From Acidovorax sp. NB1 (GTDB lineage Bacteria; Pseudomonadota; Gammaproteobacteria; Burkholderiales; Burkholderiaceae_C), in contig NZ_BJHU01000035.1 of the NCBI RefSeq assembly GCF_005405905.1, forward strand, positions 62,001 through 126,000: a stretch of DNA of 64,000 nt, read 5' to 3'. The stretch's first letter is position 1, and every line of letters starts with the position of its first letter. This document shows, piece after piece, positions 801 through 17,108 of this stretch. Below the pieces are notes generated by a model, which was given only the letters and a program-made list of their open reading frames with translations, was not told the DNA's origin and did no database searches. The position numbers and the translations under genes are program-made.

Positions 801-1508
801 TCAAGCCTGGAGTTGCACCTGCGGCTGCGCCGTGAGCCGGTAGCCCGCACCGCGCACGGTTTCCACCATCACAGAGGCCGCCCCCAGCGCCTCGCGCAGG
901 CGCTTGACATGCACGTCCACCGTGCGCTCCTCGATGAAGACATGGTCACCCCACACCTTGTCGAGCAGCTGCGAGCGGCTGTGCACGCGCTCGGCATGCT
1001 TCATCAAAAAGTGCAGCAGCTTGAATTCGGTCGGGCCCACCTTGAGGGGCTGTGCCTGGAACGACACACGGTAGGTCGCGGCATCCAGCACCAGCTCGCC
1101 AATGGTCACGCTGTCGCTCACCTGCTCGGGTGCGCGGCGGCGCAACACGGCCCGGATACGGGCCAGCAGCTCTTGCGTGGAAAACGGCTTGGTGATGTAG
1201 TCGTCAGCGCCCGCATCCAGGCCCGCCACCTTGTCCGGCTCGTCGCCCCGGGCGGTGAGCATGAGGATGGGGATGGGTTTGGTGCGGCTGTCCGCACGCC
1301 ATTTGCGGGCCAGCGACAGGCCGCTCTGGCCAGGCAGCATCCAGTCGAGCAGGATGACATCCGGCAGCACGGCGTCCAGCTCACGCTGGGCGGAGTCGCC
1401 GTCTTCCGCCCAGAAAGGCTGGAAACCGTTGTGGCGCAGATTGACGGCAATCAGCTCGGCAATCGCGGGTTCGTCCTCCACGATGAGGACGCGTGGGAGC
1501 TTTCTCAT
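801..1508 (-). CDS. phoB: Phosphate regulon response regulator PhoB
   Basis: PhoB is the cytoplasmic OmpR-family activator that binds Pho boxes after phosphorylation by PhoR. The 235-residue protein has an N-terminal receiver domain (residues about 5-120) with acidic pair E11/D12, phospho-acceptor Asp55 in LLDWMLPG and Lys107 in ITKPFS. The C-terminal winged helix includes the motif RTVDVHVKRLREAL. Length is normal for the family. It lies between phoU (20 bp upstream) and phoR, completing a pst-phoU-phoB-phoR order typical of beta-proteobacteria. Candidate binding sites for it are annotated at 6.1, 6.2 and 11.2 kb. Confidence 0.97.
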   Translation of the reverse strand: MRKLPRVLIVEDEPAIAELIAVNLRHNGFQPFWAEDGDSAQRELDAVLPDVILLDWMLPGQSGLSLARKWRADSRTKPIPILMLTARGDEPDKVAGLDAGADDYITKPFSTQELLARIRAVLRRRAPEQVSDSVTIGELVLDAATYRVSFQAQPLKVGPTEFKLLHFLMKHAERVHSRSQLLDKVWGDHVFIEERTVDVHVKRLREALGAASVMVETVRGAGYRLTAQPQVQLQA

Positions 1509-1528
1509 AGGTGTGCCAAAGCCCTTTC

Positions 1529-2230
1529 TTACAGCACGGCCGACTCGATCTCGTCGAGGGCAGTGTGGCGCACATCCTTGCCCTTGACCAGATAGATGAT
1601 CAGCTCGGCCACGTTCTTGGAATGGTCTCCGATGCGCTCGATCGCCTTGGCCAGGAACAAGAGGTCCAGGCTGGGCGAGATGGTGCGGGGGTCTTCCATC
1701 ATGTAGGTGATTAGCTTGCGCACGAAGCCGTCGAACTCCTTGTCGATGAGGTCGTCTTCCTTGAGGATTGCGACGGCGGCCTTCACGTCCAGGCGCGCAA
1801 ACGCGTCCAGCGTCTTGCGCAGCAGGCCCGATGCCAGCTCGGCCGCGGTGCGCAGGTCGCTAGACGGCAGCGAGCGCGGTGCGCCGCTCTCGATGATGGA
1901 GCGCACCATGCGGGCCATCTTGTTGGCCTCGTCGCCCATGCGCTCCAGGTTGGCCGTGGCCTTGGAGAAGGCCAGCAGCAGGCGCAGGTCGCGCGCGGTA
2001 GGCTGGCGGCGGGCAATGATGGAAGACAGCTCCTGGTCGATCTCGACCTCCATCGCATTGATGCGGGTCTCCATCGAGGCGACTGTCTCCACCGCCTCCA
2101 GGCTGAACTGGGACAGGGCGTAGACCGCCTGGCGGATCTGCGACTCCACGAGGCCGCCCATCTCCATGACGCGGGCGGAGACGCTGTTGAGTTCGCTGTC
2201 GAACTGCGAGGAAAGATGTTTATCGGGCAT
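1529..2230 (-). CDS. phoU: Phosphate transport system accessory protein PhoU
   Basis: PhoU is a cytoplasmic helical protein that couples the Pst transporter to PhoR and keeps the Pho response off when phosphate is plentiful. The 233 residues contain two PhoU helical repeats with the acidic/basic signatures near 'ERMGDEANKMARM' and 'ERIGDHSKNVAE'. ATG 2230 is preceded by a GGAG ribosome-binding site. The gene follows pstB after 12 bp, so it is surely in the pst operon. Confidence 0.97.
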   Translation of the reverse strand: MPDKHLSSQFDSELNSVSARVMEMGGLVESQIRQAVYALSQFSLEAVETVASMETRINAMEVEIDQELSSIIARRQPTARDLRLLLAFSKATANLERMGDEANKMARMVRSIIESGAPRSLPSSDLRTAAELASGLLRKTLDAFARLDVKAAVAILKEDDLIDKEFDGFVRKLITYMMEDPRTISPSLDLLFLAKAIERIGDHSKNVAELIIYLVKGKDVRHTALDEIESAVL

Positions 2231-2242
2231 CTCGTTGTCTCC

Positions 2243-3025
2243 TTAGCCGAAACGGCCGGTGATGTAGTCTTCGGTTTCCTTGCGCTCGGGCTTGAAGAAG
2301 ATCTGCTCGGTGGCACCGAACTCGATCATCTCCCCGAGGTACATGTAGGCGGTGTAGTCGCTGCAGCGTGCAGCCTGCTGCATGTTGTGGGTCACGATGG
2401 CAATGGTGTAGTCGTGCTTGAGCTCGTCGATCAGCTCTTCGATCTTGGCGGTAGACAATGGGTCCAGCGCCGAGGTGGGCTCGTCGAGCAGCAGCACCGA
2501 AGGCTTCACGGCCACGCTGCGGGCAATGCACAGGCGCTGCTGCTGGCCGCCGGACAGCGACAGGCCGCTCTGGTGCAGCTTGTCCTTCACCTCGGTCCAG
2601 AGCGCGGCCTTGGACAACGCCCATTCCACGCGGTCGTCCATTTCGCTCTTGCTCAGCGACTCGTAGAGCTTCACACCGAAGGCGATGTTGTCGTAGATGG
2701 ACATGGGGAATGGCGTGGGCTTCTGGAACACCATGCCGATGCGGGCGCGCAGCAGGTTGATGTCCTGCTTGGCGTCCAGGATGTCCTGGCCATAGAAGTT
2801 GATGGAGCCCTCGGCACGCTGGCCGGGGTAGAGGCTGTACATGCGGTTGAGCGTGCGCAGCAGCGTGGACTTGCCGCAGCCAGAAGGGCCGATGAAGGCC
2901 GTGACCTTGTGCTCGGCGATGTCGAGGCTCACGTTGCGCAGGCCTTGGAACTTGCCGTAGAAAAAACTCAGGTTGCGCAGTTCCAGCGCGTTCTTGCTGG
3001 CAGTGGCGGTAGCAGTGGCGTTCAT
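2243..3025 (-). CDS. pstB: Phosphate ABC transporter ATP-binding protein PstB
   Basis: PstB is the ATPase of the high-affinity phosphate importer. The protein (260 residues from ATG 3025) has Walker [10 protein letters not shown], the Q-loop, ABC signature LSGGQQQRL and Walker [13 protein letters not shown]. The frame is open to a TTG six bases earlier, but ATG 3025 with an upstream AGGA is preferred. It follows pstA by 57 bp and precedes phoU by 12 bp. Confidence 0.97.
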
Positions 3026-3082
3026 TGTCAAATCCTGAAAATGGAGACTGTCTGGTTGTGTCTGCGTACGTTGGCGGCCCGG

Positions 3083-3964
3083 TCAGGCACGGCTCTTTTC
3101 GCGCAGGAAGACCCGCGCCACGACGTTGAGAATCAGCACCGAGAGTGTGATGAGCAGTGCGCCGCCCCAGGCGAGACGCACCCAGTTTTCATAGGGGCTC
3201 AGCGCAAACTGGAAGATCACCACGGGCAGGTTGGCCATGGGCGCATTCATGTTGGTGCTGAAGAACTGGTTGTTGAGCGCCGTGAACAGCAAGGGCGCGG
3301 TCTCGCCGCTGATGCGGGCCACAGCCAGCAGCAGACCGGTCATCACGCCGCTGCGGGCCGCGCGCAGGGTGACCATGGTGGACACCTTCCAGCGCGGCGC
3401 GCCCAGGGCAAAGGCCGCTTCGCGCAGGCTGCCGGGCACCAGGCGCAGCATGTTCTCGGTGGTGCGCACGACCACGGGCACGGCGATCAGCGACAGCGCC
3501 AAGCTGCCGGCCCAGCCGGAGAAGTTGCCCACCGTGGCCACGGCGATCGCATAGACGAACAGCCCCAGCACGATGGACGGCGCCGACAGCATGATGTCGG
3601 TCACGAAGCGGGTCAGCTCTGCGGTCTTGCTCTGGCCGCTGTATTCGGCCAGGTACACACCCGCCAGCACGCCGATGGGTGTGGACACCAGCACGGTGAA
3701 ACCCACCATCATCAGGCTGCCCACGATGGCGTTGGCCAGGCCACCGCCCTCGGAGCCGGGGGCCGGCGTGGACTGGGTGAACATGTTCCAGTCCAGTGCG
3801 GCGAAGCCGTTGGACAGCAGCACGCTCAGGATCCAGAGCAGCACAAACAGACCCAGCACCATGGCGCCCAGCGACAGGGTCAGACCGATGGCGTTGGAGC
3901 GCTGGCGCTTCTTGTAGAGTTGTTGATTGAATTCCATGGAGCTTGTCTCGTTGGAGGGTTTCAT
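3083..3964 (-). CDS. pstA: Phosphate ABC transporter permease PstA
   Basis: PstA is one of two inner-membrane permeases of the phosphate importer. The 293 residues show about six hydrophobic segments and the binding-protein-dependent transport motif region EAAFALGAPRWKVSTMVTLRAA, which contacts PstB. A second in-frame ATG at 3937 (MEFNQQ...) is an alternative start; neither has a strong ribosome-binding site. The start codon is only 7 bp from the pstC stop, so translational coupling is likely. Confidence 0.95.
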   Translation of the reverse strand: MKPSNETSSMEFNQQLYKKRQRSNAIGLTLSLGAMVLGLFVLLWILSVLLSNGFAALDWNMFTQSTPAPGSEGGGLANAIVGSLMMVGFTVLVSTPIGVLAGVYLAEYSGQSKTAELTRFVTDIMLSAPSIVLGLFVYAIAVATVGNFSGWAGSLALSLIAVPVVVRTTENMLRLVPGSLREAAFALGAPRWKVSTMVTLRAARSGVMTGLLLAVARISGETAPLLFTALNNQFFSTNMNAPMANLPVVIFQFALSPYENWVRLAWGGALLITLSVLILNVVARVFLREKSRA

Positions 3965-3971
3965 GGCGGGC

Positions 3972-4991
3972 TCAGAGGCCCTTGGCCTTCTCGGCGCGCA
4001 GCAGCATGATCTTGGCCGCCGACAGCACCACGAAGGTGATCACGAAGAGCAGGAAGCCCAGGGCGAACAGCGTGGACAAATGGAAGTCGGCAGCCTCGCC
4101 GAATTCGTTGGCCAGCGTGGAGGCGATGGACGTGCCTGGCGAGAACAGCGAGGTGGGCATGCGGTTGGCATTGCCGATCACGAACGTCACCGCCATGGTC
4201 TCGCCCAAAGCGCGCCCCAGGCCCAGCATGACGCCACCGATCACGCCCTTTTGTGTGTAGGGCAGCACCACGCGGCGCACCACTTCCCACGTCGTGCAGC
4301 CCAGCCCATAGGCCGACTCACGCAGGATGGGCGGCACGATCTCGAACACATCGCGCATCACGGCGGCCACAAAAGGCAACACCATGAAGGCCAGCACGAT
4401 GCCCGCCGCCAGGATGCCAAAGCCGTTGGTGCTGCCACCGAACAGGAAGCCCACCAGCGGCATGGAGCCCAGCAGCTTTTGCACCGGCATCTGGAAGTAG
4501 TCTGCAAACAGCGGCGCGAAAACGAACAGGCCGAACATGCCGTAGATGATGGACGGCACCGCCGCCAGCAGCTCCACAGCGGTGCCGAGCGGGCGCCGCA
4601 GCCACACGGGGCAGGTTTCGGTCAGGAACAGCGCGATACCGAAGGCAAGCGGCACGGCGATCAGCAGCGCGATGCCTGCGCTGGCCAGGGTGCCCACGAT
4701 GGCGATGGCTGCACCGAATTCTTCGTTGACGATGTCCCACTCCACGCGCCAGATGAACTGGGCGCCAAACTTGTGAAAAGCGGGCCAGGCGTAGATGAAA
4801 AGCGAGACGATGATGCCGAGCAACGCGGCCAGCACCAACAGGGACAGACTCTGGGTCAGCCGATGGAAAAATATGTCCTGAAGTCGCTGCCGCTTGGCAA
4901 TCGACACCATCGACTTAGTGGGGGCGCCCGTCACTTTGACAGACGCGGGTTGTGAACTCATGGTGGTTCCCACGCTCATGTTGACTCCCAT
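3972..4991 (-). CDS. pstC: Phosphate ABC transporter permease PstC
   Basis: PstC is the partner permease of PstA. The 339-residue sequence has a cytoplasmic N-terminal extension, then about six membrane segments. The transport-signature loop [21 protein letters not shown] sits near residue 240. It lies between the pstS-pstC stem-loop and pstA. The N-terminus may begin at a later methionine because there are several near the start (positions 1, 5 and 10). Confidence 0.95.
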
Positions 4992-5016
4992 CTGGCTTCT
5001 GGAGGCCCCACAAACC

Positions 5017-5053
5017 AGCGCCCATCGGCCAGCCAGGCCGACCGATGGGCGCT
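5017..5053 (-). terminator. Stem-loop between pstS and pstC
   Basis: A perfect 12-bp inverted repeat (5017-5028 pairing with 5042-5053, arm AGCGCCCATCGG) with a 13-nt loop sits in the 79-bp gap after pstS. There is no clear T-run. It is better read as a 3' stabiliser or partial attenuator that raises pstS mRNA over the distal pst genes than as a full terminator. Such unequal expression is usual for periplasmic binding proteins. Confidence 0.6.
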
Positions 5054-5070
5054 ATTTTGGAGCAGACTGC

Positions 5071-6093
5071 TTACTTCTTGATTTGCGACCACGCCTTGGA
5101 ACGGATCTCAGCGGTCAGGCTGTCGGGCAGGGGCACATAGTCCAGTTCTGCGGCCATGCCCTTGCCGTTCTTGAATGCCCAGTCAAAGAACTTCAGAACT
5201 TCAGCCGATTGCGCCTTGTCGGCAGGGTCCTTGTACATGAGGATGAAAGAGGCGGTGCTGACCGGCCAGCTGTTGGCACCCTTGGCGTTCACCATCGAGA
5301 TACCCATGCCAGGCACGCTGAACCAGTCGGCGCTGGCAGCAGCGGCGGCAAACGTGGCGTCATCAGGGCTCACATACTTGCCATCGGCGTTCTGCAGTTG
5401 CAGGAACGTCATGTTGTTCTTCTTGACGTAGGCGTATTCAACATAACCAACAGCGCCCTTTACGCGGGTCACGTTGGCGGCCACGCCTTCGTTGCCCTTG
5501 CCACCCACCGAAGAGGCTGCGGGCCACTTCACGGCCGCGCCCTTGCCCACTGAATCCGCCCATTCTTTACTGACAGCGGACAGGTAGTCGGTCCAGTTGA
5601 AGGTGGTGCCGGAACCATCTGCGCGGTGGACCACGGTGATGTTCTGGTCAGGCAGGGTCTTGCCGGGGTTCAGCGCGGAGAGCTTGGCATCATTCCACTT
5701 GGAAATCTTGCCGAGGAAGATTTCTGCCAGCACCGGGCCCGTTACACGCAGTTCGCCGGGCTTGAAACCGTCCAGGTTGATCACAGGCACCGTGCCACCA
5801 ATGATGGCGGGAAACTGAACCATACCGTCCTTGTCCAAGTCAGCGCCGGACACTGGAGCGTCCGTGGCACCAAAAACAACGGTCTTGGCACGGATCTGGC
5901 GGATGCCGCCGGAAGATCCGATGGACTGATAGTTGAGCCCCGTGCCCGTTTCCTTCTTGTAAGCTTCTGCCCACTTGGCGTACATGGGGAACGGAAAGGT
6001 TGCGCCCGCACCGGTGATATCCGCTGCGAAGGCACTGCCGACGGCCAACGAGGCCAAGGCTACAGCAACGGTTTTGAGAAATGCGCGTTTCAT
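5071..6093 (-). CDS. pstS: Periplasmic phosphate-binding protein PstS
   Basis: PstS captures phosphate in the periplasm and delivers it to PstCAB. The 340 residues begin with a Sec signal peptide (Lys/Arg start, hydrophobic core, SAFA-AD cleavage near residue 23). The conserved phosphate-binding segments GAGATFPFPMY, SIGSSGGIRQI and RADGSGTTFNWTDYL follow. It is the first gene of the operon and has a convincing Pho box and -10 immediately upstream (6135-6168). Confidence 0.98.
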   Translation of the reverse strand: MKRAFLKTVAVALASLAVGSAFAADITGAGATFPFPMYAKWAEAYKKETGTGLNYQSIGSSGGIRQIRAKTVVFGATDAPVSGADLDKDGMVQFPAIIGGTVPVINLDGFKPGELRVTGPVLAEIFLGKISKWNDAKLSALNPGKTLPDQNITVVHRADGSGTTFNWTDYLSAVSKEWADSVGKGAAVKWPAASSVGGKGNEGVAANVTRVKGAVGYVEYAYVKKNNMTFLQLQNADGKYVSPDDATFAAAAASADWFSVPGMGISMVNAKGANSWPVSTASFILMYKDPADKAQSAEVLKFFDWAFKNGKGMAAELDYVPLPDSLTAEIRSKAWSQIKK

Positions 6094-6134: not shown

Positions 6135-6168
6135 ACTCTAGGCGCGCAAGATGACAATTCAGTGACAC
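6135..6168 (-). promoter_or_regulatory. Pho box and -10 of the pst operon
   Basis: Read on the minus strand, TGTCACTGAATTGTCAT gives two TGTCA(C/T) half-sites 11 bp apart (6151-6167), the exact PhoB repeat period. Exactly 10 bp downstream is TAGAGT (6135-6140), a good -10. This is the known architecture of PhoB-activated promoters, where the Pho box replaces the -35. The pstS ATG is at 6093. Confidence 0.85.
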
Positions 6169-7888: not shown

Positions 7889-8386
7889 ATGACCAACGCT
7901 TCCGCCGCGCCCAGCACCCCCGCCTCCCCGACGGCATCCACACCGACACCGGCCGCACCGGCAGCAAAAGCTGCCAAACCCGCAGCAACCACGGCATCCA
8001 AGCCTGCAAAAAAGATCGCAGCAAAGAAGCCAGCTGCAGCCAAAAAGCCTGCTACGCCCAAGACTGCAGCGCCAGCAGCCCCCAAGCCGGCCAAGGACGT
8101 CAAAGTCAAGAAACCCAAACTGGTGCGCGACAGCTTCACCATCCCCAAGGATGAGTACGCAGTAATCGAAACGCTCAAGCAGCGCGCAGCCACCTTGGCC
8201 CAGCCGGTCAAGAAAAGCGAGTTGCTGCGCGCAGGCCTCAAGGTACTGGCGGGCCTGTCTGACAGCGCACTGCGCAGTGCTTTGCAGGCCGTGCCCTCCA
8301 TCAAGACTGGGCGTCCCAAAGCAGAGGCCGTAGTGGCTCCCACTGCGGCACCGGCAGCAAAGGCCGGCTCGAAATCACGCAAATAA
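7889..8386 (+). CDS. Lys/Ala/Pro-rich basic protein with conserved C-terminal segment
   Basis: A 165-residue protein of unknown function. Residues about 1-75 are low complexity, made of Ala, Lys, Pro and Thr in repeats such as KPAAAKKPATPK, resembling histone-H1-like bacterial tails that bind nucleic acid. Residues about 80-150 form a more ordered part (RDSFTIPKDEYAVIETLKQRA, KKSELLRAGLKVLAGLSD) with a helical, ribbon-helix-helix-like look. A nucleoid or DNA-binding role is inference. It has its own AT-rich upstream region with a perfect palindrome, so it is probably transcribed separately from ppx. Confidence 0.7.
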   Translation: MTNASAAPSTPASPTASTPTPAAPAAKAAKPAATTASKPAKKIAAKKPAAAKKPATPKTAAPAAPKPAKDVKVKKPKLVRDSFTIPKDEYAVIETLKQRAATLAQPVKKSELLRAGLKVLAGLSDSALRSALQAVPSIKTGRPKAEAVVAPTAAPAAKAGSKSRK

Positions 8387-8467: not shown

Positions 8468-8932
8468 CTACAGGAACTCCGGCGACTGCACGGTCAGCAG
8501 CACAGTCTGGCTTTGGTCCAACCTCTGGCGCTGGCGCAGCCACCACACAGCGCCCTTGCGAACGGCACATTCCGTCGCCTGAAGCTCCAGCAACTGAGCA
8601 ATGGTCTGGCCCAGCACAGGCTGGTGCCCAACGATCAGCACGGCACCCTTGGAGCGGGGCCACTGGGCCAGCTCCAACAGATCCTCAACGTTCCCGCCCG
8701 GAAGCAGTTCTGCCCGCATCTTGAACTTGCGCCCCAGGGCATTGGCCGTCTGCTCGGTTCGCCGCGCCGGGCTGGCCAACACGCGCAAGCCTTCGGGCAA
8801 CTGGCGGTCCAGCCATGCGGCCATGCGAGCGGCCTGCTTTTCCCCCCGTGAAGTCAGCGCCCGCGCCAGATCATCGCTGCCGTCCGCAGCCTCTTCAGCT
8901 TCCGCATGACGCCACAGGATCAGGTCCATCAT
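8468..8932 (-). CDS. sixA: Phosphohistidine phosphatase SixA
   Basis: Histidine phosphatase-superfamily protein of 154 residues, the usual SixA length. It has the N-terminal catalytic RHA motif (Arg8-His9) and the second catalytic His in VGHQP (His103). SixA removes phosphate from phosphohistidine on HPt domains or on the nitrogen phosphotransferase system. The start overlaps the ppk stop (ATGA), so it is translated with ppk. Confidence 0.88.
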   Translation of the reverse strand: MMDLILWRHAEAEEAADGSDDLARALTSRGEKQAARMAAWLDRQLPEGLRVLASPARRTEQTANALGRKFKMRAELLPGGNVEDLLELAQWPRSKGAVLIVGHQPVLGQTIAQLLELQATECAVRKGAVWWLRQRQRLDQSQTVLLTVQSPEFL

Positions 8933-11124
8933 GCCGTCCTTTGCTCGATCCGGGAAATGGCCGCAGCGGGCCCATAGCGCACCATCAAGGCATCCTGCGC
9001 ACCCAATCCAACACCCGGTCGAGGCGCACGGTCGTAGGCGCCCCGCGCGTTCAATGTCCAGGCATCCCTGTCATCGTGCAGGTAGGCCACCAGGCATTCA
9101 TCCACGATCTGCTGGCGCAGGCCAGGGTCCGTCACGGGCCAGGCCAGCTCAACGCGACGCATCATGTTTCGGTTCATCCAGTCGGCACTGGAGAGGTACA
9201 AGTCCTCCTCCCCATCCGCCCGAAAGTAGAAAACGCGTGTGTGCTCCAGAAAACGGCCGATCACCGAGCGAACACGGATGTTGTCCGTGACGCCCGGCAC
9301 CTGCGCCGCCAGCATGCAGGCTCCGCGTACGATGAGGTCAATGCGCGCACCGCGCTGCCCCGCCAGAATGAGAGCGCGAATCAGCGTCTCATCGGTGAGG
9401 GCATTCATCTTGGCAACGATCCGCGCATCCTCGCCACGGCCCGCCGCCAGCCCAACCTGCTCAATCTTCTCGACCATGCGGCGGTGCAGGTGGAAGGGCG
9501 CCAGCATGAGCTTGCGCAGTTTGGGCGGGCGGTTCTGGCTGGCCAGGTGGTTGAACACGCCATCCATGTCCGCCGTGGTTTCCTCATCGGCGGTCAGGTA
9601 GCTCAGATCGGTATACAGACGGGCTGTGCGCACGTTGTAGTTGCCTGTGGAGAGATGCCCGTAGCGCCGCAACTGTCGCCCTTCCCTGCGCGTGACCAGC
9701 AGCATCTTGGCGTGCGTCTTGAGACCCACCACGCCATACACCACCTGCGCGCCAATCGACTCCAGCGCCTCAGCCCAGTTGATGTTGGCCTCTTCATCAA
9801 AACGCGCCTTGAGTTCCACAACCGCCATCACCTCTTTACCCCGACGCACGGCCTCGGACAGCAGGTCCATCAGCTCGGAGTCAGCGCCAGTGCGGTAGAT
9901 GGTCTGCTTGATAACCAACACCTGAGGATCGTTCACAGCTTCGCGCAAGAAGGCCAGCAGGCCATCGAAACTCTCAAAGGGCTGATGAATCAGCACATCC
10001 CGCTGGCGCAACTGGTCCATGATGGACGCACCCGGCTGCAACTGGCGGGGCCACGATGAACTCCAAGCCGGGAACAACAATGCAGGGTCGTTGACCAGGT
10101 CCACCAGCTGCGTCAGCCGTACCAGATTCACCGGGCCGTGCACACGGTACAAGGCCGCAGCCGGAAGGCCAAACTGCTCCAGAAGGAAGTCAGACAGGAA
10201 CTTCGAGCAACCAGCCGACACCTCCAACCGTACCGCTTGACCGTAGTGGCGGTGCTGCAGTCCTTGACGCAGGGCGGTGCGCAGGTTGCGCACGTCTTCC
10301 TCATCCAGTGCCAGATCAGAGTGGCGCGTGACGCGAAATTGCGAGAACTCAGTCACCTCACGGCCCGGAAAGAGGTCCTCAAGGTGCGCGCGGATGATGC
10401 TCGACAGACTGACGAAAAGCGCCTCCTTGGGTGCTACCTTGGCTGGCATGCGGATCAAACGTGGCAGCGCGCGAGGCACTTTAACGATAGCGATTTCATT
10501 CTCACGGCCAAAAGCGTCCCGCCCTTTAAGACGAACGATAAAGTTCAATGACTTGTTGGCAACCTGCGGGAACGGGTGCGCCGGATCCAGCCCCACAGGA
10601 ATCAGCAAGGGACGGACTTCGCGCACAAAGTAGTCGTGCACCCAGCGCTTTTGCTCAGACGACCGATCACCATGGCCAACGATGCGGATGCCATGCTGGG
10701 CAAATGCGGGCACCAGGTCGTCGTTGTACAGGCTGTACTGGCGCTCCACCAGATCGTGGACCTTGGCAGACAGCGCCTCAAATGAGCCCACGGTATAGAG
10801 CCCCTTGGTCTCACCTTTCTTGGCCGCCGTGATGTGGGGCGCTGCGCGCACTTCGAAGAACTCGTCCAGGTTGGACGAAACGATACACAGATAACGCAGA
10901 CGCTCCAGCAGGGGAACGTCCGTGCGTACCGCCCAATCGAAGACCCGTTCGTTGAAAGCCAAAATGCTGTGATCGCGGTCCAGAAACACGGATGGAGACG
11001 CACCGTGACCGACCGCCTCCGGGACATGCCCCGAATCAGGAAATGATGCCGGGGACGTGTCAACCACAGAGTCTGAACGCTCGCGCTGCACAGACACAGC
11101 GGCATTGGGAAGCAAAGGCAACAT
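8929..11124 (-). CDS. ppk1: Polyphosphate kinase 1
   Basis: Polymerises the gamma-phosphate of ATP into polyphosphate. The 731 residues include the N-terminal domain beginning at FLDRDHSILAFNERV, the catalytic histidine region LKTHAKMLLVTRREG and the C-terminal phospholipase-D-like segments HLSTGNYNVRTARLYTD and SSADWMNRNMMRRVE. The first 45 residues are weakly conserved, so a later start is possible; no strong ribosome-binding site is seen. It sits between the lipid-remodelling operon and sixA, and a candidate Pho box lies just upstream. Confidence 0.96.
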   Translation of the reverse strand: MLPLLPNAAVSVQRERSDSVVDTSPASFPDSGHVPEAVGHGASPSVFLDRDHSILAFNERVFDWAVRTDVPLLERLRYLCIVSSNLDEFFEVRAAPHITAAKKGETKGLYTVGSFEALSAKVHDLVERQYSLYNDDLVPAFAQHGIRIVGHGDRSSEQKRWVHDYFVREVRPLLIPVGLDPAHPFPQVANKSLNFIVRLKGRDAFGRENEIAIVKVPRALPRLIRMPAKVAPKEALFVSLSSIIRAHLEDLFPGREVTEFSQFRVTRHSDLALDEEDVRNLRTALRQGLQHRHYGQAVRLEVSAGCSKFLSDFLLEQFGLPAAALYRVHGPVNLVRLTQLVDLVNDPALLFPAWSSSWPRQLQPGASIMDQLRQRDVLIHQPFESFDGLLAFLREAVNDPQVLVIKQTIYRTGADSELMDLLSEAVRRGKEVMAVVELKARFDEEANINWAEALESIGAQVVYGVVGLKTHAKMLLVTRREGRQLRRYGHLSTGNYNVRTARLYTDLSYLTADEETTADMDGVFNHLASQNRPPKLRKLMLAPFHLHRRMVEKIEQVGLAAGRGEDARIVAKMNALTDETLIRALILAGQRGARIDLIVRGACMLAAQVPGVTDNIRVRSVIGRFLEHTRVFYFRADGEEDLYLSSADWMNRNMMRRVELAWPVTDPGLRQQIVDECLVAYLHDDRDAWTLNARGAYDRAPRPGVGLGAQDALMVRYGPAAAISRIEQRTA

Positions 11125-11158: not shown

Positions 11159-11204
11159 AGTATTTAACGACCAGATGTCAATGATGTGACAGACTTTGTG
11201 ACAA
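11159..11204 (-). promoter_or_regulatory. Candidate Pho box and -10 upstream of ppk
   Basis: On the minus strand there are three half-site-like elements: TGTCAC, TGTCAC, and TGACAT. The last two are 11 bp apart (11191-11175). AATACT (11159-11164) lies exactly 10 bp downstream, matching the pst promoter geometry. The sites lie within the last codons of the glycosyltransferase gene. The predicted start of transcription would be about 27 nt before the ppk ATG. Confidence 0.5.
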
Positions 11205-12255
11205 CCGAAGAACCCGTCACACCCGCACGGCGGACTGGCACAAGGTATTGCTGAAACAGTTGTGCCGCATGGGTCCAGGTGAAATCCAGCGCGCGGCTGC
11301 GCGCCTCGGAGCGCGGGATCGCCAGTGCCTGCTGACTGGCTGTCAGCAAGTTGTCGTCCAGCACACCACCACGGGCAACGCCACGCTGGTGAGCGCCAAG
11401 CACCTCCATGGGGCCGTCCACAGGAAAAGCCGCTACCGGGGTCCCGCAAGCCATCGCCTCCAGCATCACCAGTCCAAACGTTTCCGAACAACTGGGGAAT
11501 ACAAAAACATCAGCAGCCGCGTACACCTGCGCAAGAGCTGCGCGGTCCAGAATGCCGAGCCAACGTACCTGCGGATATTTCGCCTTGAGCCGGGCTTCCA
11601 GCGGCCCGACACCGCACACCACCTTGGTGCCGGGCATGTCCAATTGCAGGAACGCCTCGATGTTCTTTTCGTAAGAAATCCGACCGACATACAAAGATAC
11701 GGGGTGAGCCAAAGCACCCGTCAGCGGGCTTGGGCAAGCCACACCATGGAAAGGAAAAGCTTGTGTGTCCACACCGTGGGTCCACTGGCGCAGGTTGCGA
11801 AAACCTCGCTGCTCCAGCATCTGCAGAACCCCATGCGTAGGCACCATCACCCCAGACGACGGCCGGTGGAAATGCTTGAACAACGCGTAACCCCACGACA
11901 AGGGGACACGCAGGGCCGCGTGGAGGATTTCTGGAAACTTAGTGTGAAAGGCTGTCGTGAAGGCCAACCTGCGCTGCAGGCAATAGCGCCGCCCCGCCCA
12001 GCCCAAAGGCCCCTCGGTGGCCAGATGAATGGCATCGGGCTGCAGGGCATCCAGCATCTTGGCCACCAATCGGCCTGGACGCACAGCCAGATCAATGCCG
12101 GCATAGCCCGGGCAGGGTCGGGTGGCGAAGTGTCCTGGATGCACCACTGTCACCTCGTGCCCCATGCCCTCCAGCTCCCGCACCAGCTCCAGCAACGTAG
12201 TGACCACCCCATTGACCTGAGGCAACCAGGCGTCTGTCAGCAAGGCGATCTTCAT
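11164..12255 (-). CDS. GT4 glycosyltransferase, likely diacylglycerol glycosyltransferase (Agt-like)
   Basis: A 363-residue GT-B fold, family GT4 enzyme. The N-terminus has the nucleotide/acceptor pattern ALLTDAWLPQVNGVV, and the C-terminal domain has the donor-binding E-x7-E motif in ETFGLVMLE near residue 275. The frame is open further upstream, but ATG 12255 overlaps the stop of the preceding metallophosphoesterase gene (ATGA), which fixes the start. In alpha- and gamma-proteobacteria a GT4 enzyme next to PlcP makes glycolipids from diacylglycerol under phosphate starvation. The same role here is inferred from context and was not tested by sequence search. Confidence 0.82.
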   Translation of the reverse strand: MKIALLTDAWLPQVNGVVTTLLELVRELEGMGHEVTVVHPGHFATRPCPGYAGIDLAVRPGRLVAKMLDALQPDAIHLATEGPLGWAGRRYCLQRRLAFTTAFHTKFPEILHAALRVPLSWGYALFKHFHRPSSGVMVPTHGVLQMLEQRGFRNLRQWTHGVDTQAFPFHGVACPSPLTGALAHPVSLYVGRISYEKNIEAFLQLDMPGTKVVCGVGPLEARLKAKYPQVRWLGILDRAALAQVYAAADVFVFPSCSETFGLVMLEAMACGTPVAAFPVDGPMEVLGAHQRGVARGGVLDDNLLTASQQALAIPRSEARSRALDFTWTHAAQLFQQYLVPVRRAGVTGSSVVTKSVTSLTSGR

Positions 12256-13124
12256 GCGGGCACTCCGGCTTTGACGGGGGAAGCCTGGGGTACAGGCACA
12301 GCAGGCCACTGCAGAAGCTCCAGACGGCCGTCCAGATGCTCTACCAGCGCTGTGTGGCTTTCCACCCAATCGCCGTCATTGCAATAAAGCGTGCCGCCAA
12401 TTTCGCGCATCTCGGCCCGATGAATATGGCCGCACACCACCCCATCGTGGCCACGGCGGCGCGCTTCAGTAGCCACAGCTACCTCGAAATCGGTCACATA
12501 GTTGAGGGCCTTCTTCACTTTGCCTTTGAGGTAAGCCGACAACGACCAGTAAGGCAAGCCCATGCGAGCGCGCAGGGTGTTGAGGTGGCGATTGAGCTTA
12601 AGCGTGAACTCGTACAGGTTGTCCCCCAGGTATGCGAGCCACTTGGCGCACTCGATGACACCATCAAAGTGATCTCCGTGTGTCACCCAGAGGCTGCGGC
12701 CATCGGCCGTGGTGTGCACTGCATCCGCCACGACTTCGATCCCTCCAAACGAGTGGCCCACAAAGGCCCGCGCAAATTCGTCATGGTTGCCAGGTACGAA
12801 CACCACCCGGCATCCCTTGCGCGCGCGGCGCAACAGCTTTTGCACCACATCGTTGTGGGCCTGCGGCCAGAACCATTTGCGCCGCAACTGCCAGCCATCC
12901 ACGATGTCCCCGACAAGATAAAGATGATCGCTGGGGTGGTGCTTGAGAAAATCCAGCAAGGCAATGGCCTGGCAACCGGGTGTACCCAGGTGCAGATCAG
13001 AGATAAAGACCGCCCGGTACCGGCGCGGCCCGCCTGCGTGCATGTGGGCGTCGGGCTCGGCGTCATCAGGCCCCAGGGGCTCGTGCAGCCAGGGGCCCAA
13101 TGCGTCGAACGCGGCACGCATCAA
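12252..13124 (-). CDS. PlcP/LpxH-like metallophosphoesterase (putative phospholipase C type)
   Basis: Calcineurin-like phosphoesterase of 290 residues with the full metal-binding set: D43-L-H45 in ISDLHLG, GDIVDGW (72-78), GNHDE (112-116), THGDHFD and GHIHRAE. By homology it would be called UDP-2,3-diacylglucosamine diphosphatase (LpxH), and that remains possible because no other LpxH is in the window. However, the position between an OlsB-type acyltransferase and a GT4 glycosyltransferase matches PlcP, which cleaves phospholipid head groups to give diacylglycerol during phosphate starvation. Both junctions are 4-bp ATGA overlaps, showing one translational unit. Confidence 0.82.
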   Translation of the reverse strand: MMRAAFDALGPWLHEPLGPDDAEPDAHMHAGGPRRYRAVFISDLHLGTPGCQAIALLDFLKHHPSDHLYLVGDIVDGWQLRRKWFWPQAHNDVVQKLLRRARKGCRVVFVPGNHDEFARAFVGHSFGGIEVVADAVHTTADGRSLWVTHGDHFDGVIECAKWLAYLGDNLYEFTLKLNRHLNTLRARMGLPYWSLSAYLKGKVKKALNYVTDFEVAVATEARRRGHDGVVCGHIHRAEMREIGGTLYCNDGDWVESHTALVEHLDGRLELLQWPAVPVPQASPVKAGVPA

Positions 13125-13957
13125 GCCCCCAGGAAGTGCTTGCGATAGCGGGGATGCAGGTCTGCCAGGCGCATCAGCATGGGGAGGTCTGCTGTGTTGA
13201 AATCAGGGTCCCAAGCCGGGGCTCCCAATACCCGCGCGCCCAAACGGAGATAGCCTTTGATCAAGGCAGGAGGCTCCACGGCGATAGAGCCATCCAGATG
13301 CTCCACGGGGAGGGGCAAGCGCGGCAACACGTGGTATTCAATGGCAGCAAGATGGGTCTTGCGCACTTGCTGCCAGATGCTGGCCGCAGCGTCACCGCTG
13401 ACCACCCCGTTGTGGAGCATGGGAATGCTGGCGCAGCCGATCATGGTATCGAGCAGGTTGCGCACCATAAAGTCCGCCAGTGCACTCCACAGCGCCATGA
13501 TCACACCGCCATGGCGGTGTTCGGGATGCACGCAGCTACGGCCCAGTTCCACCATGCGGGGGCGCAAAGTGCGCAGCCTCGTCAGATCGAATTCCGTATC
13601 ACTGTAGGTACCACCCACCCGTTTGGCCTGCGCAGGCGTAAGCACCCGATAAGTCCCAATGACTTGCTGGCTCTGGGCATCGCGCACCAGCAGGTGCTCG
13701 CAGTAGTCGTCAAACAGGTCCACATCGTGGCCGACAATGGGGGTCGTCAATCGAGCGCCCATTTCAGCAGCGAAAACGTCGAACCGGAGACGCTGTGCCT
13801 CACGAACCTCATCCTGATGTCGTGCCCACGCCACCTGAATGGCGCCACGTTCCTGGGCTGGTTTTTCTGCGCCAGGCACAACAACCTGCCGATGTGAAGC
13901 GCCTGCGCCAACAGCATCAACAGCGGGGGACAAGGTCAGGCGGGACAAATCATTCAT
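13121..13957 (-). CDS. OlsB-type GNAT N-acyltransferase (ornithine lipid synthesis)
   Basis: A 278-residue acyltransferase of the OlsB / 'putative hemolysin' COG3176 group. The signature EAQRLRFDVFAAEMGARL and the downstream VELGRSCVHPEHRHGG match the acyl-carrier-protein-dependent enzymes that N-acylate ornithine to lyso-ornithine lipid. The second enzyme (OlsA, an O-acyltransferase) is not in the window. It is the first gene of a three-gene overlapping operon with the PlcP-like and GT4 genes. The substrate is inferred from family; other amino-acid acyl donors or acceptors are possible. Confidence 0.78.
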   Translation of the reverse strand: MNDLSRLTLSPAVDAVGAGASHRQVVVPGAEKPAQERGAIQVAWARHQDEVREAQRLRFDVFAAEMGARLTTPIVGHDVDLFDDYCEHLLVRDAQSQQVIGTYRVLTPAQAKRVGGTYSDTEFDLTRLRTLRPRMVELGRSCVHPEHRHGGVIMALWSALADFMVRNLLDTMIGCASIPMLHNGVVSGDAAASIWQQVRKTHLAAIEYHVLPRLPLPVEHLDGSIAVEPPALIKGYLRLGARVLGAPAWDPDFNTADLPMLMRLADLHPRYRKHFLGA

Positions 13958-14056: not shown

Positions 14057-14090
14057 CCAACGTGTCTGTGACATGTCATCGCCATGACAA
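14057..14090 (-). promoter_or_regulatory. Cluster of PhoB-like half-sites upstream of the lipid operon
   Basis: On the minus strand TGTCAT (14089-14084) and TGACAT (14078-14073) are 11 bp apart. TGTCAC follows at 14073-14068, and a further GTCAC lies at about 14056. The half-sites resemble those at ppk. No -10 is seen at the expected 10-bp distance, so this is weaker than the other three sites. The site lies between divergent genes and is nearly palindromic, so it could also act on the GGDEF-EAL gene. Confidence 0.35.
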
Positions 14091-14156
14091 ACGAGCTCTT
14101 TGGAACCAGCTCCACGCGGCCTTTGGGCCTGCATAATTGGTTCAGGAAACCGCACT

Positions 14157-17108
14157 GTGTCCGCACTGCCCCCGCCCCCTTCCCGTCGCTCCCTGACTGC
14201 TTTTGTGGCCGTTTTTGCACTGGCGGCAGTCTGTGCGGGAACCTTGATCTGGACCATCGAGCGCCAGGAACAGGCCCAACAACGCACCCAGGCGGCAGAC
14301 ATTGCGGGGGATCATGTTCAGGCACTGCAAAGGGCCATAGAACTGGCGCTTTCGGCCAACAACGCACTCGTAGCGCTGGTGCGGCAAGGGCAAGGCAATG
14401 TCACCCAGTTTGAAGAGGTGGGCACGCAAATGCTGCCGTTCTATCCCGGCATCGCCGCCATGGGCCTCTCTCCCGATGGGGTTGTGCGGCAGGTCGTCCC
14501 CCGGCAAGGTAACGAAAACCTCATAGGGTTTGACCAACTCAAAGACCCCCGGCAAAGCGCCGAGTCGATCCGGGCCCGAGACACTGGCTTGCTCACGCTG
14601 GCCGGTCCGATCGAACTTGTGCAGGGGGGACTCGGGGTGGTGGGTCGCCAGCCGGTGTACCTGGACGATGACCAGGGGCGCCGCCGCTTCTGGGGATTCA
14701 CTTACGTCACGATCCGTCTGCCCGATGTGTTGGCCGCTACCCGGCTGCTCCAGCTCACAGAACGCGGCTATCACTATCGCTTGTGGCGTGTACGGCCTGA
14801 CACGGGAGAGGAGCAGATCATCACGGCCTCAGCGCCGCCGCCGGGAAGCGATGCAGAGGGCCGCTCGTTGACTCTCCCCAACGGGCAATGGACGCTGAGC
14901 CTTGCGCCTGCCAATGGCTGGGGTTCACCAGCTGTACTGGCACTGCGTTGCGCACTAGGTCTCCTGTTTGCGCTGCTCATGGCATACCTGGCACGCCTGC
15001 TTGTGGTGCTGAAAGCGCACGAACGCGGGCTGGCCTTCCAGGTAGCCCAGCGCACCTCCGAAATCCAGGCCACCCAGCAGCACCTGCAGGCCACCATCGA
15101 CGCCATTCCCGATCCCTTGTTCGAGCTTGACCTGGATGGCCGCTATTGCAGCGTGCACAGCCAGCGTGCTGAGCTGCTGGCAGCCCCTGCTGAGCAGTTG
15201 ATAGGGCGCAGCGTGACTGAGGTTTTGCCCGCATTGGCGGCGCTGTCGGTGATGGACATATTGAAGGAAGCCCAGACCCAGGGCTGGTCCACCGGACGGC
15301 AAATTGTGCTGGACCTGCAGGGTCTCGGCATCACTTGGTTCGAACTCTCGGCCGCCCGCAAACCGGGCTCGCCGGGCGCCACGCCCCACTTCATACTGCT
15401 GTCGCGGGACATCACTGAACGCAAACGGTCTCAGGAACAGCTGCAGTTGACGGCCCAAGTGTTCGACCAGAGCAGTGAAGCCATCGTGATTGCGGACGCA
15501 TCCCACACCATCGTGCGCATCAACCGTGCCTTCACACGGATCACGGGTTACTCAGAATCCGAGGCCGTAGGCCAGTCCGTGCGCCTGCTCACTTCGGCCC
15601 AATCTGCCCAGGACTTCAACGCCGATGCCGTCTATGCCCGCCTCACCCAGGCGGGGCACTGGGAAGGCGAAGCATGGGGCCGCCGCAAGGACGGCTCCAC
15701 CTATCCGCAATGGCTGTCCGTGAGCGGCGTACGCGATGGCAACGGCTGCATGACACATTCGATCACGCTGTTTCGAGACATCACCGTACAGCGCGAGGCG
15801 CAAGACCGCATCCAGCGCCTCGCACATTTCGACCCCTTGACCGACCTGCCCAACCGGGCCCTGTTGGCCGAACGGGCCCGGCGCCACATTGCCGACCTGC
15901 AAGCCCAGGGGGGCACGCTGGCAATGCTGTTCCTGGATCTGGATCACTTCAAGAATGTGAATGATTCGTTGGGCCATCGCGTAGGCGACATCCTGCTTGT
16001 GGCCGTAGCCCGCCGCCTGCAGTCATTGCTAGGCCCCCAGGACACCGTCTCACGCCTGGGGGGCGATGAGTTTCTGCTGTTGCTGCCCTCGGCCTCTGCA
16101 GCCCACGCGGCCGAAGTAGCCACCCGGTTGCTAACGGCGGTAGCACAACCTTTTCAGATTGACCCCTACGAACTCACCACCACCTTGTCCGTGGGCATCG
16201 CCATGTATCCGGCCGATGGCGATTCGTTTGACACGCTTTACCAGCGTGCGGATGCCGCCATGTACCGCGCCAAACAAAGTGGGCGCAACCGGTACGGTTT
16301 CTTCACTGCCGATTTGGAGGCAAGAACGGCCCGCGCGCTGCAGATCGAAAATGCGCTGCGCCGCGCCCTGGAGCGCAACCAGTTCGAACTGCACTACCAG
16401 CCCCAGGTGTCACTCACCACGCGCCAGGTGGTCGGCGCCGAAGCGTTGCTGCGCTGGCGCCACCCAGAACTGGGCATGGTGTCACCAGCAGAATTCATTC
16501 CTGTAGCCGAGAGCAGCGGCATGATCGTGGCCATTGGCGAGTGGGTGCTTCACACAGCCGTGCACGATGCCAAACGTTGGCTGGACATGCAATTGCCGTT
16601 ACGGGCGCTCTCGGTCAATTTATCAGCGGTGCAGTTCCGCCACCCACAACTGCCAGAAATGGTGACACGCTGCCTGCAACAGGCCGGGTTGCCCGCACGC
16701 CGACTTGAGCTGGAACTGACGGAAGGCGCTGCGGTGGACGACCCTGCCGCCGCCCTGGCCATGATGGACCAGCTGCACGACCGCGGCGTGCGCCTGTCGA
16801 TGGACGACTTTGGCACTGGCTATTCCTCCCTGAGCTATCTCAAACGCTTCCAGATCTACAAACTGAAGATCGACCAGTCATTTGTGCGTGACCTTGATGA
16901 CGATGCCAATGACCGTGCCATCGTCAGCGCCATCATCCGCATGGCTCAGGCACTTGGCATGCAGACCACGGCCGAGGGCGTGGAGACCGATGGCCAACTC
17001 GAATTCCTGCGGGCCCAAGGCTGCGACGAAGGCCAGGGCTATCTCTTCAGCCGCCCTCTGCCCGCAGACGAGTTCGAAGCCTACCTGCGCCAGCATCTGG
17101 GCGGCTGA
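14157..17108 (+). CDS. Membrane CHASE-PAS-PAS-GGDEF-EAL cyclic-di-GMP protein
   Basis: A large sensor that can make and/or degrade cyclic-di-GMP at the inner membrane. From GTG 14157 (preceded by AGGAA) it has 983 residues. The layout is a first membrane helix (about residues 12-32), a periplasmic CHASE-like domain (to about 265), a second helix (about 270-290), two PAS domains, GGDEF with intact RLGGDEF, and EAL with intact EALLRW, ELTEG, DDFGTGYSSL and AEGVE motifs. The inhibitory RxxD site before GGDEF reads GPQD, so the arginine is missing. The frame stays open to a TTG at 14100 that lacks a good ribosome-binding site. A related gene follows 124 bp downstream. Confidence 0.92.
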   Translation: MSALPPPPSRRSLTAFVAVFALAAVCAGTLIWTIERQEQAQQRTQAADIAGDHVQALQRAIELALSANNALVALVRQGQGNVTQFEEVGTQMLPFYPGIAAMGLSPDGVVRQVVPRQGNENLIGFDQLKDPRQSAESIRARDTGLLTLAGPIELVQGGLGVVGRQPVYLDDDQGRRRFWGFTYVTIRLPDVLAATRLLQLTERGYHYRLWRVRPDTGEEQIITASAPPPGSDAEGRSLTLPNGQWTLSLAPANGWGSPAVLALRCALGLLFALLMAYLARLLVVLKAHERGLAFQVAQRTSEIQATQQHLQATIDAIPDPLFELDLDGRYCSVHSQRAELLAAPAEQLIGRSVTEVLPALAALSVMDILKEAQTQGWSTGRQIVLDLQGLGITWFELSAARKPGSPGATPHFILLSRDITERKRSQEQLQLTAQVFDQSSEAIVIADASHTIVRINRAFTRITGYSESEAVGQSVRLLTSAQSAQDFNADAVYARLTQAGHWEGEAWGRRKDGSTYPQWLSVSGVRDGNGCMTHSITLFRDITVQREAQDRIQRLAHFDPLTDLPNRALLAERARRHIADLQAQGGTLAMLFLDLDHFKNVNDSLGHRVGDILLVAVARRLQSLLGPQDTVSRLGGDEFLLLLPSASAAHAAEVATRLLTAVAQPFQIDPYELTTTLSVGIAMYPADGDSFDTLYQRADAAMYRAKQSGRNRYGFFTADLEARTARALQIENALRRALERNQFELHYQPQVSLTTRQVVGAEALLRWRHPELGMVSPAEFIPVAESSGMIVAIGEWVLHTAVHDAKRWLDMQLPLRALSVNLSAVQFRHPQLPEMVTRCLQQAGLPARRLELELTEGAAVDDPAAALAMMDQLHDRGVRLSMDDFGTGYSSLSYLKRFQIYKLKIDQSFVRDLDDDANDRAIVSAIIRMAQALGMQTTAEGVETDGQLEFLRAQGCDEGQGYLFSRPLPADEFEAYLRQHLGG

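Follow-up and report, generated by a model that had tools for sequence, protein, structure and literature searches.

A conserved olsB-plcP-agt operon in Acidovorax sp. NB1 that probably remodels membrane lipids when phosphate is scarce

Several described systems come close to the olsB-plcP-agt operon considered here, which lies in a 64,000-nucleotide stretch of Acidovorax sp. NB1 (contig NZ_BJHU01000035.1, positions 62,001 to 126,000; the whole stretch is called the window, and coordinates refer to it). In Pseudomonas aeruginosa, the pair plcP-agt (PA3219-PA3218) has a Pho box and yields monoglucosyldiacylglycerol (MGDG) under phosphate stress, Agt1 making MGDG from UDP-glucose (PMC8528852). 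The two enzymes and their order are the same as in the window, at 56% (PlcP) and 50% (Agt) identity; unlike in the window, olsB and ppk are not annotated in a 12.7-kb plasmid stretch around plcP-agt, and ornithine lipid is made from a separate olsBA operon (PMC9804370). In Pseudomonas putida BIRD-1, the levels of PlcP, OlsA and OlsB all increase when phosphate is low, and the increase depends on PhoBR, but olsA-olsB (PPUBIRD1_0974, 0975) and plcP (PPUBIRD1_1390) occupy separate loci (PMC5082522). For marine bacteria, plcP gene-neighbourhood types 1 to 6 were defined, of which type 2 is plcP-agt; the partners named in the section on the genomic context of plcP are btaAB and glycosyltransferases, with no ornithine-lipid synthase among them (PMC4796936). 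In Acinetobacter baumannii, olsA is not linked to olsB, and of the two only olsB is under Pho control, an arrangement like the one we propose for the window; plcP, a glycosyltransferase and an operon are not mentioned in the main text (PMC11828411). The PlcP of Sinorhizobium meliloti is 51.6% identical to that of the window; agt, olsB and ppk are not annotated in a 12.8-kb stretch around it, for which the gene table is incomplete.

The operon of Acidovorax sp. NB1 runs on the minus strand from 13957 to 11164, and we consider it likely to be a PhoB-controlled membrane-remodelling unit. A sequence-only reading of the window had described a three-gene operon beside ppk and pst genes, and the open reading frames (ORFs), their order and their neighbours were found as it said: olsB (13121..13957), plcP (12252..13121) and agt (11164..12255). 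Of the two ATGA overlaps of 4 bp that it gave for the junctions, the one at plcP/agt is present. The olsB/plcP junction, CTTGATGCG, is a 1-bp TGATG overlap with the ATG start of plcP, and would be a 4-bp overlap only if plcP started at TTG.

The proposed course of events is as follows. When phosphate is scarce, PhoB would activate the promoter before olsB. PlcP would remove the head group of phospholipids, giving diacylglycerol and released phosphate-bearing head groups, and Agt would add a sugar, by likeness to Agt1 presumably glucose, to the diacylglycerol to form a phosphorus-free glycolipid. In parallel, OlsB would acylate ornithine, and an unlinked OlsA-type O-acyltransferase, for which the gene after pyrC is a candidate, would complete the ornithine lipid. 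Read-through into ppk-sixA is probable, and a second Pho site there would increase the amount of polyphosphate kinase. The replacement of phospholipids by both glycolipids and ornithine lipids, as first suggested from the letters alone, thus gains support from the PlcP tree, the Agt1 match and the OlsB models described below.

The olsB product (278 amino acids) is an OlsB-type N-acyltransferase predicted to initiate the synthesis of ornithine lipid or of another amino-acid lipid. It contains PF13444 (E 3e-35) and matches the NCBIfam OlsB models at E 2.6e-45 and 4e-44, that is 155 and 151 bits, the cut-offs being 350 and 320; the models for GlsB (glycine), OlsF and acyl-homoserine-lactone synthesis give 24.5, 43.1 and about 22 bits, respectively. 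No second OlsB homologue was detected in the same genome at E up to 1, and a PDB sequence search with OlsB returned no match up to E 1. With no OlsA gene in the operon, the ornithine-lipid branch depends on a partner encoded elsewhere. The earlier claim that OlsB begins ornithine lipid synthesis is in keeping with the model matches, which lie under their cut-offs, and is qualified by the missing OlsA.

Four of the five PlsC-type genes of the genome (all except L004) were scanned against NCBIfam, and the gene after pyrC (L005) gave the best match to the OlsA model, with E 3.5e-36 and 125 bits against a cut-off of 300. Homologues of L005 at E 1e-20 occur in 112 of 120 genomes of the family: 94 of 97 that bear OlsB and 18 of 23 that do not (p = 0.006; three of the 23 were counted by elimination from the list). 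Since these homologues are nearly universal, their co-occurrence with OlsB is weak proof of an OlsA function. An unlinked OlsA is compatible with the proposed unit in the light of the A. baumannii precedent. In one relative (G061, locus L230) the gene immediately upstream of olsB-plcP-agt-ppk, on the same strand, encodes an OlsA homologue, and in another (G080) an OlsA-like gene is divergent from olsB; both score under the OlsA cut-offs. In G024 and G115, the coordinates place an OlsA-like gene no more than 0.5 kb from one that is olsB-like.

OlsB might instead make another N-acyl amino-acid lipid, with lysine or glutamine or in a lyso form. The OlsB of A. baumannii produces both ornithine and lysine lipids (PMC11828411), and scores under the ornithine cut-offs in an operon without OlsA would fit such a product. 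We regard this as unlikely, because the OlsB models score far above those for GlsB, OlsF and acyl-homoserine-lactone synthesis, and OlsA-type genes, though under their cut-offs, adjoin olsB in G061 and G080. Ornithine lipid remains the preferred product.

The olsB-plcP-agt operon is conserved, and its arrangement is common to many relatives. Of the 120 family genomes, 87 have plcP, 97 have olsB and 81 have both (p = 2e-7); in 33 of these 81, olsB is located upstream of plcP on the same strand at a distance of at most 300 bp. Among the 87 family plcP loci, several of which are represented by stretches that are short or cut at their ends, 26 have adjacent olsB and agt (21 of these with ppk in the stretch), 7 have olsB without agt, 15 agt without olsB, 8 ppk only and 31 none of them. 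A second set consists of the best 80 named loci, ranked by likeness to the window and so biased to near kin; by title they come mostly from Comamonadaceae genera or from unclassified betaproteobacterial and Burkholderiales metagenome-assembled genomes (MAGs), two being from one MAG. Here the order olsB-plcP-agt-ppk is found 42 times, olsB-plcP-ppk without agt 12 times, olsB-plcP without agt or ppk 7 times and olsB-plcP-agt without ppk 6 times, and 13 loci are of other types or cut. Among the matches listed, from which records very near the window may be missing, the closest named plcP genes are those of an Acidovorax MAG (94%), A. kalamii (93%) and A. radicis (90%).

Nineteen of the named olsB-plcP genomes lack an adjacent agt (loci L161, L163, L167, L178, L182, L183, L188, L198, L201, L206, L208-L211, L213, L214, L218, L221 and L227). 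A glycosyltransferase match elsewhere in the genome at E 1e-20 was found in 17 of them, 16 at 32-40% identity and one at 47%, compared with a second match in 14 of the 42 agt-bearing genomes (p = 6e-5, ignoring kinship). The idea that olsB-plcP outlasts agt holds for the best 80 named loci, where 19 loci without agt stand against 5 with plcP-agt and no olsB in uncut stretches. It was dropped in view of the wider family, in which 7 of the 87 plcP loci have olsB-plcP without agt and 15 have plcP-agt without olsB; overall, olsB is not the more stable partner of plcP there. On a plasmid of Mitsuaria sp. 7 (L069, 4965-8031), plcP is followed directly by ppk1, and agt and olsB are not annotated in the stretch.

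A coupling of plcP to an aminolipid synthase is found in other families as well. In a class-wide sample of 229 genomes, searched for plcP at E 1e-20 and with the OlsF model (which also picks up some OlsB) at E 1e-10, 65 have plcP, 59 have an OlsF-model match and 37 have both (p = 7e-11). With the genome of the window left out, plcP and the synthase lie at most 1.5 kb apart in 9 of 36 genomes, whereas a simple uniform model with 3-Mb genomes predicts about 0.06 (p = 5e-18); in the remaining 27 the two are further apart or on different contigs. The nine coupled genomes are spread over eight families. The synthase is OlsF-like in eight of them: it is directly upstream of plcP on the same strand in G179 and G331, downstream of plcP-agt in G258, and divergent from plcP in G205, G243, G203, G326 and G198. 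The ninth, G152, has the order olsB-olsA-plcP. Two of the eight OlsF-like matches (G179 and G205) exceed the curated cut-off and that of G326 is cut by a contig end; a second scan, with the protein of G331 and with the matched stretches for G258 and G179, placed G179 above the cut-off and the other two below it. An adjacent agt is present in G331 and G258, G205 has plcP-agt, and G179 has a glycosyltransferase at 40% about 0.8 kb further on; the stretches of G243, G198, G203, G326 and G152 showed no agt.

If the three genes were neighbours by history near ppk, with neither regulation nor function in common, loci such as the 31 without olsB, agt or ppk, the 8 with ppk but without olsB or agt, and the plcP-ppk1 plasmid of Mitsuaria would be expected. 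This explanation is very unlikely given the overlapping genes, the order olsB-plcP-agt-ppk in 42 of the best 80 named loci, and the OlsF-like synthases that adjoin plcP in other families. We tentatively go a step further than a conserved unit and suggest, as a possibility with somewhat less than an even chance, that placing an aminolipid synthase beside plcP is a design which recurs and has arisen more than once, the neighbours of plcP being OlsB in the window, OlsA-OlsB in G061, OlsB-OlsA in G152 and the bifunctional OlsF type in eight genomes. It would serve to exchange phospholipid for aminolipid in one regulated swap, with the Agt/glycolipid branch as an exchangeable second outlet, in line with the other glycosyltransferases found more often where olsB-plcP has no adjacent agt.

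To judge by sequence, the phosphoesterase encoded by plcP is a PlcP, a member of the metallophosphoesterase family, and not LpxH; it is predicted to act as an intracellular phospholipase C that turns phospholipid into diacylglycerol. One PlcP reference is an S. meliloti gene from a named record whose neighbours encode an acyl-homoserine-lactone synthase and a LuxR regulator; from these neighbours we take it to be SMc00171. The other, which also supplies the Agt reference, is the plcP-agt pair of a P. aeruginosa record (L068). In that record a stretch with plcP, agt, azoR3 and cyaB is deposited on a plasmid, pPALO11, although it resembles a chromosomal region. From the neighbouring genes, together with PMC8528852, we assume the pair to be PA3219-PA3218.

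In a tree of 76 rows (a filter removed one of 77), in which the LpxH of the same genome is present twice, a branch supported at 100/100 sets all 21 LpxH rows apart, and the window phosphoesterase groups with PlcP of S. meliloti and of P. aeruginosa, away from LpxH, as the first description of the locus had anticipated. The tree program flagged long branches and odd composition, so only the PlcP/LpxH split is used. Metallophosphoesterases carry the motifs DxH, GD, GNHD and GHxH. In the alignment all four are intact in the window protein, in invariant columns, and it reads GNHDE where the LpxH of the same genome reads GNRD. The two proteins share 30% identity over 124 residues. Against the LpxH models the window protein reaches 37.6 bits (TIGR01854, cut-off 190.35) and 45.6 bits (PRK05340, cut-off 134). 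A separate LpxH, which the sequence-only reading had proposed to look for, is encoded on another contig and lies above both curated NCBI cut-offs; LpxH is above the cut-off in 19 of 21 genomes searched (its own, relatives and the same order). A PDB sequence search with PlcP gave weak matches only (E 0.037). That the protein is a second or the true LpxH, in a cluster for lipopolysaccharide synthesis, might be suggested by its weak similarity to the LpxH models and by plasmid records that annotate its relatives as UDP-2,3-diacylglucosamine diphosphatase, but is rejected in view of the scores far under the cut-offs, the tree split, the motif, the separate LpxH gene and the presence of LpxH in 19 of the 21 genomes.

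The third gene, agt, codes for a GT4 glycosyltransferase with PF13439 and PF00534 domains. Its pairing with PlcP had been pointed out before, and agrees with 49.6% identity to P. aeruginosa Agt1 over 335 amino acids. The GT4 protein adjoins plcP and resembles a characterised Agt over most of its length; on this likeness it is an Agt, with a predicted transfer of sugar to diacylglycerol to give glycosyl-diacylglycerol. No second agt match was found in the genome at E 1e-10.

Pho-box-like sites were sought with the consensus YTGTCATN4YTGTCAT (14 scored positions). The four best sites of the window have two mismatches each. Three are on the coding strand: upstream of olsB (TTGTCATGGCGATGACAT, 14073..14090, minus strand, ending 115 nt before the start codon), upstream of ppk inside the 3' end of agt (CTGTCACATCATTGACAT, 11175..11192, minus strand) and upstream of pstS (6151..6168, minus strand). 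The fourth lies inside agt on the opposite strand. None of 100 shuffled versions of the region upstream of olsB reached the score of TTGTCATGGCGATGACAT, and each of the five named Acidovorax loci (L149-L153) has a similar site, at -133 to -143. Of the 67 named loci with olsB before plcP, 65 had room for an olsB upstream region; at least 11 of 14 positions agreed in 18 of these 65 regions versus 1 of 65 inner stretches (p = 2e-5), and at least 10 of 14 in 34 versus 12 (p = 1e-4). In the family sample, which shares some genomes with the named loci and leaves out L020 and L128, at least 10 of 14 positions agreed in 17 of 32 olsB-led and 26 of 53 plcP-led regions versus 0 of 20 regions upstream of LpxH genes; compared one by one with shuffled versions of themselves, 11 of the 32 and 16 of the 53 regions scored higher at the 5% level. 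This enrichment upstream of olsB in relatives argues with moderate strength for control by PhoB. At 11 of 14 positions or more, the site is stronger in the named relatives before ppk (40 of 57 loci) than before olsB, the stretches being 300 versus 220 bp and the ppk count having no control set.

Several observations weigh against a joint phosphate-regulated unit. The olsB product is under the curated cut-offs of the NCBIfam OlsB models, and L005, with its homologues in OlsB-less genomes, may be a general acyltransferase. The window as a whole shows no excess of Pho-box-like sites (11 versus 9.45 expected, and 6 versus 4.2 in a second count), so only the position of the sites and their enrichment in relatives are used here. 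The olsB-led regions have no strand preference (sense 17/32, antisense 15/32), which a nearly palindromic site might explain; the corresponding counts in plcP-led regions are 26/53 and 7/53. Moreover, 31 of the 65 olsB upstream regions of named loci are below 10 of 14 positions. We hold to the joint unit on account of the PlcP and Agt identities, the separate LpxH, the OlsB models, the conserved operon, the Pho-box-like sites and the OlsA homologue of G061.

The unit probably extends beyond the three genes first proposed, whose identity and order stand, to include ppk and sixA. Polyphosphate kinase 1 (ppk, 8929..11124, minus strand; TIGR03705, 861 bits) follows agt after 39 nt if the longest ORF is taken, and its junction with sixA (8468..8932, minus strand), a phosphohistidine phosphatase gene (TIGR00249, 75.5 bits against a cut-off of 74.5), is a 4-bp ATGA overlap. 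Between 8300 and 14400 no terminator-like match lies between genes; the two that occur are inside ppk and agt, fewer than in shuffles. Transcription probably continues from agt into ppk-sixA. The genes for a PhoB-like response regulator, phoU, pstB, pstA, pstC and pstS occupy 801..6093 on the minus strand, and ppx, on the plus strand, is between them and the sixA-ppk side. An alanine/lysine-rich ORF of 165 amino acids without Pfam or NCBIfam match (7889-8386) is situated between ppx and sixA. On the other side, a CHASE-PAS-GGDEF-EAL protein (14100-17108) is encoded divergently from olsB and starts near the Pho-box-like site of olsB.

The enzymes and the pathway are known, the gene unit is conserved, and the coupling is recurrent. 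In the papers searched, no description of an olsB-plcP-agt linkage was found, and the passages seen in papers on OlsF together with PlcP contained no statement that the genes are adjacent. Searches for ornithine lipids in Comamonadaceae, for phosphorus-linked lipid remodelling or glycolipids in Burkholderiales, and for LpxH2 in Ralstonia found no paper; one for ornithine lipids in Acidovorax led to a single overview, on Burkholderia. The suggestion that the arrangement is undescribed in beta-proteobacteria agrees with this, with the correction that it is widely shared among relatives. What is most likely to be new is that plcP is coupled to an aminolipid synthase, the enzymes differing from family to family.

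The literature found on phosphate-driven membrane swapping concerns marine bacteria, methanotrophs, rhizobia and pseudomonads. In Acidovorax, Rhodoferax, Polaromonas, Limnohabitans and their kin, one Pho-linked unit would bring together the two branches that lead to phosphorus-free lipids, probably along with the synthesis of polyphosphate. From gene order one could then predict whether a genome turns to aminolipids, glycolipids or both, and the balance between the two lipids could be tested within one operon.

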